In this document: positions 6,361-19,999 of the stretch, in pieces
Layout: every line of letters begins with the position of its first letter
Position numbering within the stretch: position 1 is the stretch's first letter
IMG/VR virus record: IMGVR_UViG_3300009788_000292
Location: 1 to 24,330 of that record
DNA length: 24,330 nucleotides
Reading direction: 5' to 3' (one strand)
Origin: a virus
Made by a program: the position numbers and the translations under genes
The notes under the pieces: model-generated
Seen by the model: the letters and a program-made list of their open reading frames with translations, nothing else
The model's database searches: none
Told to the model about the DNA's origin: nothing

Positions 6361-6523
6361 AGTAAAACCAGAACTTGAAAGCATTCGTTGTATAAGAACG
6401 CGTAGTCTTAGAGAAGATATATACAGAGGTACTGGTAATGCGAATATCACATTTAGTCCAGAACGTGAACGAAGAATTTTAGAACATCAAAGAAGAGTAC
6501 AAAATGAACTTGCTAATAACTAA
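6353..6523 (+). CDS. Small charged protein overlapping portal and MuF genes
   Basis: 56 residues from ATG 6353; an upstream in-frame start at 6305 would lie inside the portal gene and has no better binding site. The first 8 bases overlap the portal stop and the last 20 overlap the next gene. The protein is rich in Arg and Glu (for example SPERERRILEHQRRVQ), likely one basic helix. No family recognised. Nested overlap on both sides argues for translational coupling and a stoichiometric role in head assembly, but it might also be only a coupling device. Confidence 0.5.
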   Translation: MSEVKPELESIRCIRTRSLREDIYRGTGNANITFSPERERRILEHQRRVQNELANN

Positions 6524-8483
6524 AGCAAAACTTAATCCAATACATAGTAGGATGGATTCGCTTCTTATGCGAAATGAGAAGGTGTTGCAGGAAGCAATAC
6601 AGAAATGGTTTGCTTTTACTGTTAAGCAAGTACAAACCGATTTGCGTACCAAATTTAAAAAAGACATCACATCAGAATTAACTGATTGGGATTTTATAGA
6701 AGAACAAGGAAAGAAAATTATTAAGCCTGCAACTTTATCCGTTATGCAATCTGGTGGAGATGGTGCTTATAAGATGTTTCAAGTAAAAGGTGCTTTCGAT
6801 GTTTTGAATGTAGACGCAGTAAGAGCTGCTGACAAATTTACAGCCAAGCTTGTTAAGGGTGTAAATGCAGAAACTAAAAAAGGCATTCGTAAACACATTT
6901 CGAACGGTGTTAAAGCAGGCAAAGGAATGCCAAAGATAGCTAAAGAACTTCGTCCTCTTGTTGGACTTACAAGTAGACAAACACAATCAGTAGGTAATTA
7001 TCGCAACCTTCTTGGTAACAAGGAAAAGTTTCCCGGCCTTTCTGATTCTGATATTGATAGGAAAGTTGGTAGATATGCGGACAAAACTCATCGACGTAGA
7101 ACGCAAACAATTGCAAGAACTGAAACAGCACGTGCACAGAATATTGGTTATGCACAGGGTATGGATGATTTGGGTGTTATGCAATTACAATTCAGTGCTA
7201 CTATAGATGAACATACTTCTGCAACGTGCACTGAATTGAATGGGAGAAAATATGACGTAGGCGAAGCAAAGAATATTATTCCTGTACATCCTAATTGTCG
7301 TTGTGCTATGTTACCGGTATTAGCTGGCAAAGCTGTTGACAGTGTTGCACAGATGGCGGAAGCTTTACCTAGTCATATAGGAGATTTGGTTACAAGATGG
7401 GAAGGCGCCTTGTCACGAAGTAATAAATGGGTTTTAAAAGACAAGCTAAGAAAACTCGGTCATAATACCGATGGAAGTCCAATTGGATTAAAGCCACCTA
7501 TTATACCGACGCCTACAATTACACCGCCGCCAGTGACAGGCTTGCCACAAAATGTGCAGGACTTAGTTACACGTTGGCAAAGTGCAACATCTCGGAGTTC
7601 AAAGTGGTCTTATCAGAATAAACTAAAACAACTTGGATACGATGTTAAAACAAGATTGTATAAACCAACTGGTATTACGCCTAAGCCTATACCAAAACCG
7701 AAACCAAAAGCACCTGAGGGCGTTTTGCCAAGAAGTGAGTTCAATACTACAACAGATTGGGATAAGCATCTTGTATCACATAAGCAAAGTTTAAAAGAAC
7801 GTATTGGAGTGGACTTAGAAACTTTGTCTACCAGACCCGGTGCTCCCGGCTATGAAGAAGCACTTACAAAATTTGAAAAGGCTATTAAATCTTATACGAA
7901 GCCTACCGTGGATACTTCTATGGCGGCTAAGTCGACAAGTGTAGATGTAGCCGAGCTTAGTACTAGACTGCAAGAGCCAGTTAAAAATAGCGTGACTAAC
8001 GGCAGTAAGAAATATCTTAGTACATTAGATGATATAGGATGTGATGATATTCTCAATGTGTATAATAAGAATTATCATACCATGGAAATACACAGCAGGC
8101 ATACGCGGGCTAATGCGCGTCCGAAGCTGTTTGAGACAAACTTTGGCGCCGATGTAACGCATACAGAAATATTCCATGAAATGGGACATTTGTTAGAAAG
8201 TCATGAAGCGTTAAGGCTTAAAGCAAACCGGTGGGTAAGAGCACGAGGTAAAGATAAAAAAATACCTTATAATAAGATATGTACTTGGTCTAAAGATAAA
8301 GAACTAGGCTACAAGGACAAATTCATCGACCCTTACGTCGGTAAGATATACGGAGATGGGCATACTGAAGCCATATCAATGGGCATGCAAAATTTTACTT
8401 CTTATAAAAAAATGTTGAGTTTCGCCAAAAGAGATTTTGACCATTTTTCTTTTATTCATGGGATATTAACTGGTGCAATTTGA
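6504..8483 (+). CDS. MuF-type minor head protein fused to an HExxH metallopeptidase
   Basis: 659 residues. The N-terminal half is an SPP1 gp7/MuF domain, with I-A-R-T-E-T-A-R at about 203-210, C242 in the CTELNG segment and H262-P-N-C-R-C267. Two related segments beginning DLVTRW at residues 294 and 353 follow, each about 27 residues and separated by proline-rich linkers. The C-terminal domain, about residues 520-659, carries H558-E-M-G-H562 with a second acidic motif HTEAISMG (E622) 60 residues later, the arrangement of a zinc metallopeptidase. MuF proteins enter the prohead and can be ejected, and polymorphic toxin domains are known at MuF C-termini, so this is a candidate injected protease effector. 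Its target is unknown. Overlaps neighbouring genes at both ends. Confidence 0.85.
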   Translation: MNLLITKAKLNPIHSRMDSLLMRNEKVLQEAIQKWFAFTVKQVQTDLRTKFKKDITSELTDWDFIEEQGKKIIKPATLSVMQSGGDGAYKMFQVKGAFDVLNVDAVRAADKFTAKLVKGVNAETKKGIRKHISNGVKAGKGMPKIAKELRPLVGLTSRQTQSVGNYRNLLGNKEKFPGLSDSDIDRKVGRYADKTHRRRTQTIARTETARAQNIGYAQGMDDLGVMQLQFSATIDEHTSATCTELNGRKYDVGEAKNIIPVHPNCRCAMLPVLAGKAVDSVAQMAEALPSHIGDLVTRWEGALSRSNKWVLKDKLRKLGHNTDGSPIGLKPPIIPTPTITPPPVTGLPQNVQDLVTRWQSATSRSSKWSYQNKLKQLGYDVKTRLYKPTGITPKPIPKPKPKAPEGVLPRSEFNTTTDWDKHLVSHKQSLKERIGVDLETLSTRPGAPGYEEALTKFEKAIKSYTKPTVDTSMAAKSTSVDVAELSTRLQEPVKNSVTNGSKKYLSTLDDIGCDDILNVYNKNYHTMEIHSRHTRANARPKLFETNFGADVTHTEIFHEMGHLLESHEALRLKANRWVRARGKDKKIPYNKICTWSKDKELGYKDKFIDPYVGKIYGDGHTEAISMGMQNFTSYKKMLSFAKRDFDHFSFIHGILTGAI

Positions 8484-8733: not shown

Positions 8734-8996
8734 TGAAAGAACAAACAAACAATCAGATAACACGTTGGATGAAGATTGGAATTGAAATAAGTATTATACT
8801 TTTTGCCGTAGGCATTGCGTGGGCAACTTTGAGAGGTTCAGTAAAGGAAAATACTAAAGATATTGACAAACATGATACACGTATTAAAAGAGTTGAGCAA
8901 ACGAATGCAGAAGTTAAGGCTGATATACGAGAAATTAAAGTCGAACAAAAACATATCAGTAAAGGCATTGAAGAAATTAAGGAAAGTTTAAAATGA
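8733..8996 (+). CDS. Single-helix membrane protein with coiled coil
   Basis: 87 residues. After a short polar N-terminus, residues 15-32 form one hydrophobic segment (IGIEISIILFAVGIAWAT). The rest is a heptad-patterned coiled coil of about 50 residues with alternating Lys/Glu and Ile/Val. The layout resembles small phage membrane proteins near holins (XhlA-like) but with helix and coil in reverse order. AAGGAG lies 11 bases before the ATG and the start shares a base with the previous stop (TAATG). Location between head genes, not in a lysis cassette, makes a lysis role uncertain. It overlaps the protease gene by 4 bases. Confidence 0.7.
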   Translation: MKEQTNNQITRWMKIGIEISIILFAVGIAWATLRGSVKENTKDIDKHDTRIKRVEQTNAEVKADIREIKVEQKHISKGIEEIKESLK

Positions 8997-13814: not shown

Positions 13815-13831
13815 AAGCGAATAGGTTTTTA

Positions 13832-13868
13832 GGGGTTTGTACCTCGATTAAAACAAACCCCATATTTT
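13832..13868 (+). terminator. Candidate intrinsic terminator after the head block
   Basis: GGGGTTTGT at 13832-13840 pairs perfectly with ACAAACCCC at 13853-13861, a 9-bp stem with a 12-base loop, followed by ATATTTT. The U-run is short, so termination may be partial. It lies in the gap between the head and neck genes, where a drop in transcription after the abundant capsid genes would make sense. Confidence 0.65.
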
Positions 13869-13881
13869 GAAAAGAGATATT

Positions 13882-14100
13882 ATGAAACAAGATTTAAGAA
13901 CAATGGACATAATAAATCCTGAACTTCGTGGCATGCCACAGGAAGACTATTTACAAGAATTAAATATTCGTTCGCACAAAGCAGGGTATACGACTAGAGA
14001 CGGCAAACAAATACCAGCAAAAATTATGTCTACTGGTTTTGGAGAATCTAAATTAAACATTTGGCCACGAGATGAAAATGGAAAATTAATTGATGACTGA
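13882..14100 (+). CDS. Small protein of unknown function
   Basis: 72 residues from ATG 13882, preferred to the TTG at 13867 because AAAGAGAT lies just upstream of it and the TTG would sit in the terminator tail. Mostly helical at the N-terminus (MPQEDYLQELN), then a basic turn-rich section with TTRDGKQIPAK and a Trp near the end. No family recognised. It is the first gene after the terminator candidate. Confidence 0.6.
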   Translation: MKQDLRTMDIINPELRGMPQEDYLQELNIRSHKAGYTTRDGKQIPAKIMSTGFGESKLNIWPRDENGKLIDD

Positions 14101-17551: not shown

Positions 17552-17871
17552 TGTTAAAGAATTTATACAACTCAGTGATAGATGTTTTAAGATTGACCTT
17601 AACTAGTGATGGTATGGGTGGTAAAACTGAAACTAAATCCGTGTTGCACAAAAATTTAAAATGCAGAATCAATTGGAAAACTGGTGGTGAGAAAATTCAG
17701 TTTGACAAAGAGACATATTATCGTGATGCAAAAGTTTATTGCAGTGTAGTCGACATTACGGTAAAAGACAGAGTACTTTTTAACGGGACTGAGTACTTGA
17801 TCGTAGACGTAGCAAATCCCGATAACATGGACAAATATTTAGTCCTAAATATAAGGCTGTTACAATCATGA
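17551..17871 (+). CDS. Head-tail joining protein (head closure)
   Basis: 106 residues. The sequence has the form of phage head-tail joining proteins: an N-terminal strand with L-R-L-T-L-T-S-D-G-M-G-G-K-T, a KNLKCRINWKTGGE section, then VYCSVVDITVKDRVLFNGTEYLIVDVANPD. It belongs to the small beta-barrel family (SPP1 gp16-like) that seals the head and forms the tail docking site. Placement right after the connector agrees. ATGA overlap with the 51-aa gene that follows. Confidence 0.78.
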   Translation: MLKNLYNSVIDVLRLTLTSDGMGGKTETKSVLHKNLKCRINWKTGGEKIQFDKETYYRDAKVYCSVVDITVKDRVLFNGTEYLIVDVANPDNMDKYLVLNIRLLQS

Positions 17872-18023
17872 CAAACGAACAAAGAGAAGAAGCACAAAAA
17901 ATAATGCGTGAGTTGATGGTTTTCATGAGCGACTTTAATGATTTGCAAAAGACTTTCAGCCGCTTACAAAACGATGCGAAAGTACTTTATGAACAATTGG
18001 ACAATAGACTTGACGATGGCTAA
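17868..18023 (+). CDS. 51-aa coiled-coil peptide
   Basis: ATG 17868 overlaps the stop of the head-tail joining gene (ATGA). The 51 residues are entirely helical in composition, with EEAQKIMRELMVF, DLQKTFSRLQNDAKVL and EQLDNRLDDG giving a heptad-like hydrophobic pattern. No family recognised. The gene ends directly before the structured RNA candidate, and its tight overlap is the main support that it is expressed. Confidence 0.6.
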   Translation: MTNEQREEAQKIMRELMVFMSDFNDLQKTFSRLQNDAKVLYEQLDNRLDDG

Positions 18024-18131
18024 CGGCTATCCAAGTAGATACGTATGTATTCCGAAGTGCAGCTGTAAAAGGTTTGGGTCGGGTGAAGCTGTCGCTGTAC
18101 ACTGAAGGCTTCCGGCTTGGATAGCTTTTTG
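18024..18131 (+). ncRNA. Candidate structured RNA with 10-bp closing stem and U-run
   Basis: GCTATCCAAG at 18026-18035 pairs exactly with CTTGGATAGC at 18116-18125, followed by five T. A G-U pair extends the stem on each side. Inside, AUAC/GUAU (18039-18042 with 18047-18050) can form a small hairpin; CC-GAAG (18052-18057) pairs with CUUC-C-GG (18109-18115, one bulged C); and UGCAGC (18058-18063) pairs with GCUGUA (18094-18099). The apex is a 30-base loop rich in G. The segment is more GC-rich than its surroundings and has no ORF of its own. It is not a tRNA: no acceptor or T-loop. It could act as an ncRNA, an attenuator, or a processing site before the tail genes. Confidence 0.6.
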
Positions 18132-18141
18132 AAAGGTAATA

Positions 18142-18444
18142 ATGGGAATAACGAAAGACAACACGGATAAATTTTTTAAGAAAGTTGAAGCACAAGTAAG
18201 TGCCAATTTGAAAACAGCTACTATGCTTGTTGAACGAGATGCAAAAATTTTCTGTCCTGTTCTTACTGGTACGCTGAAAAGAAGTATTACGCATGAATTT
18301 CCAGGTAAACATACAGCTATCGTTGGTTCGAATATTGAATACGCTCCTCATGTAGAATTAGGTACATCGAAGATGGCAGCACATCCTTTTCTTAGACCAG
18401 CAATAATAAAAAATCGTAAAGCAATAAAGAGGCTTTTAAAATGA
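18142..18444 (+). CDS. Tail component, HK97 gp10-like
   Basis: 100 residues, GAAAGG upstream. The conserved features of the HK97 gp10 family are present in order: an N-terminal helix, then D-A-K-I-F-C-P-V-L-T-G-T-L-K-R-S-I, the turn GSNIEYAPHVELGTSKM and the ending HPFLRPAI. The family forms part of the neck/tail terminator interface. It is directly after the structured RNA and overlaps the next gene by 4 bases (ATGA). Confidence 0.9.
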   Translation: MGITKDNTDKFFKKVEAQVSANLKTATMLVERDAKIFCPVLTGTLKRSITHEFPGKHTAIVGSNIEYAPHVELGTSKMAAHPFLRPAIIKNRKAIKRLLK

Positions 18445-18902
18445 ATGATTTATTTACAGGTTTGTATGACAAATATATTGCTGACACAGCTTTGGTTGCA
18501 GCTATAACTGGCTTCTATAATACTGAAGCACCTCCTAAAGCTGTGTTTCCATATATTGTTTTCCAAATGATTATAAACACACCTGATTTGGATTCATCAA
18601 ATAATTGGGAAAATTATACTTTGCAATTTAACATTTTTGATAATTCACGTTCGGCAGACACTATTGGTGCTATCTATGAATTGTTAAAAGGTGATACGGC
18701 TTCGGGAACGGGTTTTGATTATTTCGATTTAATCGTTGACAATTACACAACTGTGGCAATGGTAAGACAATCTGCTCGCTTGTTGCGTGTAGATAAAATT
18801 TGGCAATACAATGTGCTCTATGAATTGCTCTCCACCTATACGGGTGAAGTTGCGACGGCACAGTATTGTGGAAACTTTTACAATCTTTTAGGAATTTACT
18901 AA
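18441..18902 (+). CDS. Tail completion protein, DUF3168/gp17-like
   Basis: 153 residues. The arrangement LFTGLYDKY ... ADTALVAAITGFYNTEAPPKAVFPYIVFQM, then an Asn-Trp-Glu strand YTLQFNIFDNSRSAD and the helix TIGAIYELL is that of the tail terminator/completion family (DUF3168). These proteins cap the tail at the head end. It overlaps the gp10-like gene by 4 bases and ends in a TAATG junction with the transferase gene. Confidence 0.82.
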   Translation: MNDLFTGLYDKYIADTALVAAITGFYNTEAPPKAVFPYIVFQMIINTPDLDSSNNWENYTLQFNIFDNSRSADTIGAIYELLKGDTASGTGFDYFDLIVDNYTTVAMVRQSARLLRVDKIWQYNVLYELLSTYTGEVATAQYCGNFYNLLGIY

Positions 18903-19999
18903 TGGAAAATCGTATGGCAATAACTGAACAAGACAAGGAGTTACTCACAAAATTCATAAAGGAGAAGAACATAAAAAGTGTGCTTGAATTCGGTACAGGA
19001 GAATCAACATTTTTGTTTAATGTTTATTGTACTAGGGTAATAAGCTTTGATACAGATAAAGATTACTCTGCAAAATTTAGATCCAAACTAAATTGTACTG
19101 CTTTGCAATTATGGGAAGGCAAACTAGATGCTGATATGCAAGATACGTGTAGTGAATTAGATGTAGATATGGTTTTTATCGATGGCCCAGCAGGTGGAGA
19201 AAACAGAGAACCATCTTATCGATTGGCGGTTATGACAAAAGCAAAATATATTGCTTGCCACGATACACATCGTGAAACAGATTATCGTTGGGTAAGCAAA
19301 CACCTTAAAGATTGGACTTTAGTTACATCGAATAGCATGCTTTCAATTTATGAAAACAAACCTTGTACAAGTAAAGTGTTTATTAGTATTCCAATGCCCA
19401 GAGATTATAAAGTAGACTTTGAAACAATGCGCTTTTGCACAACATCAATGCGCAAAGGATGGCACTGGGCAAACTGTCCTTCGATAGAACCAACCTTAGC
19501 GAGAAATATGCTCATAGCACAATTCCTAACAAGAGAAGAGTTTGCAGACTATACACATCTATTCTTTTTAGATGCTGACACTATACCTCCTCCAGATACA
19601 ATACAGAAATTACTGTACCATGATAAAGACGTGGTAGCAGGTGTAACCCCTATCTGGCTGCATAGTAATATATATTGGAATGTACAAGTCGAAGAAAAAA
19701 AGAACATGGCTGCACGTGCATTGCCAAAAAAACTAACCAAAGTTTTGAGAGTAGGTGGCACAACAGTTCTTATAAAAAGAAAAGTGCTCGAGAAATTAGC
19801 GTTTCCTTTTTATAAAGTAGTTTTAGCAGAAACTATGGAAGAAATAAACAGAGTTGGGCCTATCTTGCAAGGTAGTGATTATTATTTTTGTGACCGAGTA
19901 CGTGAAGCGGGATTTGAGATTTACATTGACCCGCAGATTATGTGTAAACACATAAGACCAGTTAACTTATTGGATTTAATTGTTGAATATAAGGAGTAA
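18902..19999 (+). CDS. Methyltransferase-glycosyltransferase fusion protein
   Basis: 365 residues from ATG 18902 (TAATG junction, TTAGGA upstream); the ORF's upstream alternatives lie inside the tail completion gene. Domain 1, residues about 10-160, is a Rossmann methyltransferase-like fold: V27-L-E-F-G-T-G-E-S for SAM binding, an FDTDKD strand end, FIDGP at D94 and HDTHR at 120-124. Domain 2, residues about 165-365, is a GT-A glycosyltransferase: VFISIPMPRDY start, D224-A-D-T nucleotide-sugar motif, G324-S-D-Y-Y-F-C-D-R and the closing YIDPQIMCKHI. Probably decorates a virion protein or a host surface sugar. Substrate unknown. It interrupts the tail genes, so it may be an acquired moron. Confidence 0.75.
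   Translation: MENRMAITEQDKELLTKFIKEKNIKSVLEFGTGESTFLFNVYCTRVISFDTDKDYSAKFRSKLNCTALQLWEGKLDADMQDTCSELDVDMVFIDGPAGGENREPSYRLAVMTKAKYIACHDTHRETDYRWVSKHLKDWTLVTSNSMLSIYENKPCTSKVFISIPMPRDYKVDFETMRFCTTSMRKGWHWANCPSIEPTLARNMLIAQFLTREEFADYTHLFFLDADTIPPPDTIQKLLYHDKDVVAGVTPIWLHSNIYWNVQVEEKKNMAARALPKKLTKVLRVGGTTVLIKRKVLEKLAFPFYKVVLAETMEEINRVGPILQGSDYYFCDRVREAGFEIYIDPQIMCKHIRPVNLLDLIVEYKE

Follow-up and report, generated by a model that had tools for sequence, protein, structure and literature searches.

In the late region of an uncultured phage, two head-tail genes are separated by 118 nt (stop at 18023, next ATG at 18142; coordinates refer to the window, i.e. the whole stretch of 24,330 nucleotides that was analysed), and the locus raises the question of whether this gap harbours a functional RNA and what such an RNA may do at a border between late genes. 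An earlier note had placed here, at 18024-18131, a structured RNA closed by a perfect 10-bp stem (18026-18035/18116-18125) across an 80-base interior and followed by U5, features that are exact in the sequence. It had also described the gap as devoid of ORFs, which is accurate for the + strand and inaccurate for the - strand, where a 131-aa ORF crosses it. The locus is laid out as follows:

17868-18023, + strand: upstream neighbour, a 51-aa ORF with its stop at 18021-18023, 2 nt ahead of helix P1
18026-18125, + strand: whole RNA domain (model positions 1-100), covariance model match of 108 bits
18126-18130, + strand: U5 3' of P1
18142-18444, + strand: downstream neighbour, neck1/tail-completion (HK97 gp10-like) gene with its ATG at 18142 (phrog_5, E 4e-19)

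A conserved RNA recognised by comparison

The window contains a single perfect inverted repeat of 10 bp or more with a loop of 60-100 bases, against a mean of 1.3 in 20 dinucleotide shuffles, and in folding energy the RNA has a z-score of -1.24, 25 of 200 shuffles being as stable, so that the single-sequence evidence, consisting of one 10-bp repeat, does not exceed chance. Energy folding and inverted-repeat statistics give no support by themselves and were rejected as sole proof; the RNA is judged real on comparative evidence. Specifically, the RNA of about 100 bases is a conserved structural RNA with compensatory changes in all helices, and the structured element proposed at this position is borne out by nine distinct homologous sequences, the window included, which come from ten IMG/VR contigs (all metagenomic, with one RNA per contig), are 55-99% identical and keep the same fold.

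A scan with the neck-gene protein led to L002/L063 and L003/L070, in which the gap sequence differs and the pairing pattern is the same, while L041, L053 and L317 were reached by scanning with patterns and with neighbouring proteins. The covariance model R1, built from five sequences, then recognised L349 and also L454, L455 and L445; members score 78-108 bits with R1, and the best non-members about 19 bits (R1 or R2, more than 2.5 Mb of loci). A blastn search of 50,697 phage records returned no homologue of the RNA, in 84,980 prokaryote genomes the pattern AAAAGGTTTGGGN{12,36}CTGAAGG had chance matches only, and named phages with a phrog_22694 gene, a neighbour of the RNA in some members, carry no copy near that gene. 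The pattern-scan matches in viral contigs were mostly chance matches in coding sequence, and the model rejected those on which it was run. Since the scans of the collections relied on exact core patterns or on neighbouring proteins, distant members can be missed, and the absence from cultured phages and prokaryotes is valid for those patterns and for blastn.

The RNA is a new family, set apart by the absence of an Rfam relative, in line with the earlier impression that it belongs to no known family. At the gathering score, Rfam 15 contains no family that matches the window or seven relative loci, and at E values up to 10, with three members, it yields no sense-strand match and one unrelated chance match on the - strand; ARAGORN detects neither a tRNA nor a tmRNA. 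Among orphan structured RNA motifs of comparative genomics (e.g. PMC2864571), which are likewise metagenomic and supported by covariation, the present RNA differs in not being among the Rfam families tested.

Fold, covariation and conserved loops

The domain comprises the closing helix P1, the hairpin P2, the helices P3 and P4, a helix K that joins the loops of the latter two, and two conserved loop segments:

18026-18035, + strand: 5' strand of P1, pairing with 18116-18125; 8 of 10 pairs compensatory, 94% of cells paired
18038-18051, + strand: P2 hairpin, GATAC-GTAT-GTATT; 3 of 5 pairs compensatory
18052-18055, + strand: 5' strand of P3, CCGA, pairing with UCGG at 18079-18082
18057-18063, + strand: 5' strand of K, GUGCAGC, within the P3 loop, pairing with 18094-18100; 6 of 7 pairs compensatory, 97% paired
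18064-18078, + strand: conserved loop UGUAAAAGGUUUGGG, candidate functional site; 12 of 15 positions identical in 9/9 members, two more in 8/9
18079-18082, + strand: 3' strand of P3, UCGG
18085-18089, + strand: 5' strand of P4, GAAGC, pairing with GCUUC at 18108-18112; 4 of 5 pairs compensatory, 100% paired
18094-18100, + strand: 3' strand of K, GCUGUAC, within the P4 loop; values as for its 5' strand
18102-18107, + strand: conserved CUGAAG within the P4 loop; C, G, A and A in 9/9 members, U and G in 8/9
18108-18112, + strand: 3' strand of P4, GCUUC; values as for its 5' strand
18116-18125, + strand: 3' strand of P1; values as for its 5' strand

The inner stem of the earlier note (18058-18063/18094-18099) corresponds to six of the seven base pairs of K, and the compensatory changes that it had proposed to look for among relatives are found in both of its stems, with 8 of 10 pairs of P1 and 6 of 7 of the inner one changed on both sides. 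It had missed the P2 hairpin, the helices P3 and P4, and the crossing of these two by K. Nested minimum-energy folding of the window RNA yields P1, P2, P3 and P4 and cannot display K, a loop-loop helix of 7 bp that crosses both P3 and P4 and thereby makes the fold a double pseudoknot or, in another reading, a four-way junction with kissing loops. P1 is longer by two pairs in most relatives (columns 11/106 and 12/105), of which the window has U18036-G18115 only, and P2 is peripheral or optional, being missing in L053. P4 occurs with six strand pairs (GAAGC/GCUUC, AAGAC/GUCUU, GGGAC/GUCCC, GAGAC/GUCUC, AGAGC/GCUCU and GAUGC/GCAUC). P3 (CCGA/UCGG, CUGA/UCAG or CCUA/UAGG across phages and, by eye, UCCU/AGGA in L349 and L455) is the weakest helix, with 83% of cells paired and one pair only changed on both sides, whereas the other helices have several; its weakness is partly due to a shift of one register in L063 and L041, both of which pair CUGA/UCAG by eye. 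A pairing of CCNAA with UUUGG in place of P3 was dropped by eye, as it is broken by the members with CCUAA.

In the nine-sequence alignment, compensatory changes affect 22 of 31 base pairs and 94.5% of the cells are paired, and none of 500 column shuffles matches the observed structure. Sliding the partners by 1-3 columns leaves 28-45% of cells paired and 1-9 double-change cells, against 57 in the true register. P3 and P4 are not part of the model used to fit the alignment, which contains P1, P2 and K, so that the support for P4 is an independent confirmation. Moreover, when all column pairs are ranked by covariation, 14 of 33 structure pairs are among the highest 1%. A tree-aware, simulation-based covariation test, which has little power with nine sequences, gave no single pair with E below 0.05 (best 0.07), and four of its five top pairs belong to the structure. 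G-U pairs outnumber A-C mismatches (21 vs 2), an excess that points to selection on the + strand RNA rather than on its complement or on the DNA.

While the helix columns vary freely, the loop UGNAAAAGGUUUGGG (18064-18078) and CUGAAG (18102-18107) are nearly invariant. Invariant loops amid variable helices are the usual signature of catalytic RNAs or of RNAs that bind a ligand or a protein.

Two sites in the late region

In all members the RNA lies between late genes and on their strand, at either of two sites. The first, after the 51-aa ORF and before the phrog_5 neck gene, is occupied in the window, L063, L041, L053 and L317; the second, between the phrog_22694 gene and a phrog_313 tail-chaperone gene, in L349, L455, L454 and L445. 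P1 begins about 1-30 nt past the upstream stop codon, except in L317, where the upstream ORF reads into P1 and has its stop codon in the P2 loop, and it ends about 13 to 45 nt before the next start codon. The U-run after P1 varies in length at the first site and is absent at the second. A translated frameshift, a bypass or a fusion of the flanking genes was rejected, since stop codons precede the RNA in 8 of 9 members and the flanking genes differ at the second site.

The RNA is absent, at the sites compared, from the close relatives L322 and L004 and from the second-site relative L352 (incomplete contigs cannot prove absence from the whole phage), and is therefore dispensable or replaceable. 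In L322 and L349 there is a direct overlap of the 51-aa ORF with the neck gene, and in L004 the phrog_22694 gene occupies the first site, exactly where others carry the RNA, an arrangement which suggests that this gene and the RNA may once have moved together. In a tree of three neck proteins, first-site and second-site genomes fall into separate groups with low deep support, and in the RNA tree the four second-site RNAs form one group; with this single clade, weakly seen in the gene tree, a single relocation together with several losses would account for the distribution.

Several other features of these regions were noted. Members of the phrog_22694 family stand at three different head-tail places in related and named phages (L004 4469-4945, L349 7666-8169, L474 2887-3393). 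In L317, a NUMOD3 and HNH homing endonuclease gene (1750-2430), situated two genes upstream of the RNA, is inserted between a 392-aa gene and the head-completion gene, and in L318 the small ORF and the neck gene, separate in other relatives, are fused in one frame (7208-7741). In relatives without the present RNA, the interval from the head-completion gene to the small ORF contains another non-coding element, about 140 nt long and homologous among them (GTTCTAAG...AGAAC...GTCAG; L320 2077-2217, L351 about 57-197, L352 1284-1415). At the second site L353 has a terminator-like GGGGAGG/CCTCCCC hairpin (6490-6620) and L318 a larger inverted repeat (AGCCTA/TAGGCT, 8880-8990), as though an RNA element were often present at the border ahead of the chaperone gene.

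Elsewhere in the window, the C-terminal half of a 367-aa tail-region protein (18896-19999) matches a glycosyltransferase family 2 domain, and its N-terminal half has no match. Another conserved RNA candidate is an H-type pseudoknot (13819-13880) in which AGGU/ACCU crosses GGGGUUUG/CAAACCCC, located directly 5' of a ribosome binding site and the ATG at 13882. It is kept with compensatory changes in L041 (AAGGCU/AGCCUU with AGGGUUG/CAACCCU) and L053, with UUUUA and AUAUUUUGAAA conserved, and has no Rfam match.

Possible roles in late mRNA

From the fold, the selection on the + strand and the sites occupied, all of which are observed, we infer that this new family of compact, independently folding RNA in late mRNA may act in cis between cistrons, the reading that we favour with a confidence falling just short of probable. 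The constant late-gene strand, the single copy per contig and the differing downstream genes speak for such an action. The domain would work on the late (head-tail) mRNA of uncultured tailed phages at gene borders, where it would separate or protect transcript segments, with consequences for mRNA processing or stability and for the differential expression of neck and tail genes, and the invariant loops would be the site of self-cleavage or of the binding of a host or phage protein.

Within what the evidence allows, the most specific version is a putative self-cleavage. The nearest precedent for such a use is given by the hammerhead ribozymes of (pro)phages, which flank varying prophage genes and have been proposed as cutters of long phage transcripts (PMC3088659): they too are small RNAs between varying phage genes with a conserved unpaired core and variable helices, whereas the present RNA lacks their CUGANGA and GAAA core arrangement, and has another helix order and no Rfam match. 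The HDV-like theta ribozymes of gut phages (PMC10879173) are likewise phage RNAs with a double pseudoknot; unlike them, the present RNA is larger, has a different order of helices, does not lie beside tRNA genes and again has no Rfam match. Against cis processing by self-cleavage stand the absence of a match to the known self-cleaving classes, i.e. those in Rfam, and the size of the domain, about 100 nt, which exceeds the 50-80 nt expected of small self-cleaving ribozymes (PMC10085705); in the same study, none of ten other motifs picked on similar grounds cleaved when assayed. A new class of self-cleaving ribozyme (or other catalytic or ligand-binding RNA), built as a four-way junction with kissing loops and cutting late polycistronic mRNA at chosen borders, is conceivable and rather unlikely.

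A trans-acting phage small RNA, excised from the late region or transcribed within it and acting on host or phage RNAs or proteins, would, if processed from late mRNA, look identical in these data. The self-contained domain with its ends joined by P1, the tolerance of location and the invariant loops would suit it, but there is no sigma-70-like promoter on the + strand near the RNA, a U-run 3' of P1 exists at the first site only and no target is predicted; we regard this explanation as rather unlikely.

The RNA might instead control transcription of the long downstream tail genes, either as an attenuator formed by P1 and the U-run or through processive antitermination like HK022 put or epsC/EAR. 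The mid-operon position and the U5 after P1 in the window agree with this, and HK022 put offers the precedent of an RNA that alone suffices to act on RNA polymerase in antitermination (PMC9378689). A length of about 70-120 nt and a place within or before a long operon are further points in common (PMC9378689, PMC2864571); the present RNA differs in lying in the middle of the late region and in having no match to the epsC/EAR model of Rfam. The scan for intrinsic terminators finds none and the four second-site members have no U-run, so that a plain terminator is unlikely. HK022 put, which binds RNA polymerase directly and suppresses pausing and termination, consists of two simple hairpins and is not known to form pseudoknots, unlike the two crossing interactions found here. 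Transcription control as a whole appears distinctly unlikely. Of what the earlier note had envisaged, a new phage ncRNA or a regulatory or processing element is supported, while the control of tail transcription by termination is weakened by the missing U-run in four genomes.

Equally doubtful is a riboswitch or a protein-binding operator controlling how the next gene is translated. Aptamers typically combine invariant loops with variable helices, and the RNA does lie upstream of a ribosome binding site, but that site is not consistently masked by P1, and the members hold no fixed relation to one gene and its ribosome binding site: the two different downstream genes and the spacing of 13-45 nt from P1 to the start codon make a translational switch unlikely. 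Lastly, a degenerate mobile RNA (the remnant of a mini-intron or guide RNA) hopping between intercistronic sites, to which the two sites, the sister phages without the RNA and the homing endonuclease gene of L317 might point, is very improbable, since each contig has one copy, no nuclease gene was noticed with it in the other members, and one relocation with losses suffices for a single second-site clade.

Starting from one unannotated phage window, the comparison thus yields a new RNA family with a complex and well-supported topology, whose fold and invariant loops are known in enough detail to be tested directly. A new ribozyme class, if true, would be of wide interest, and if the domain processes late mRNA in cis between cistrons, as favoured here, it would show how phages can make neck and tail proteins in unequal quantities from a single transcript.
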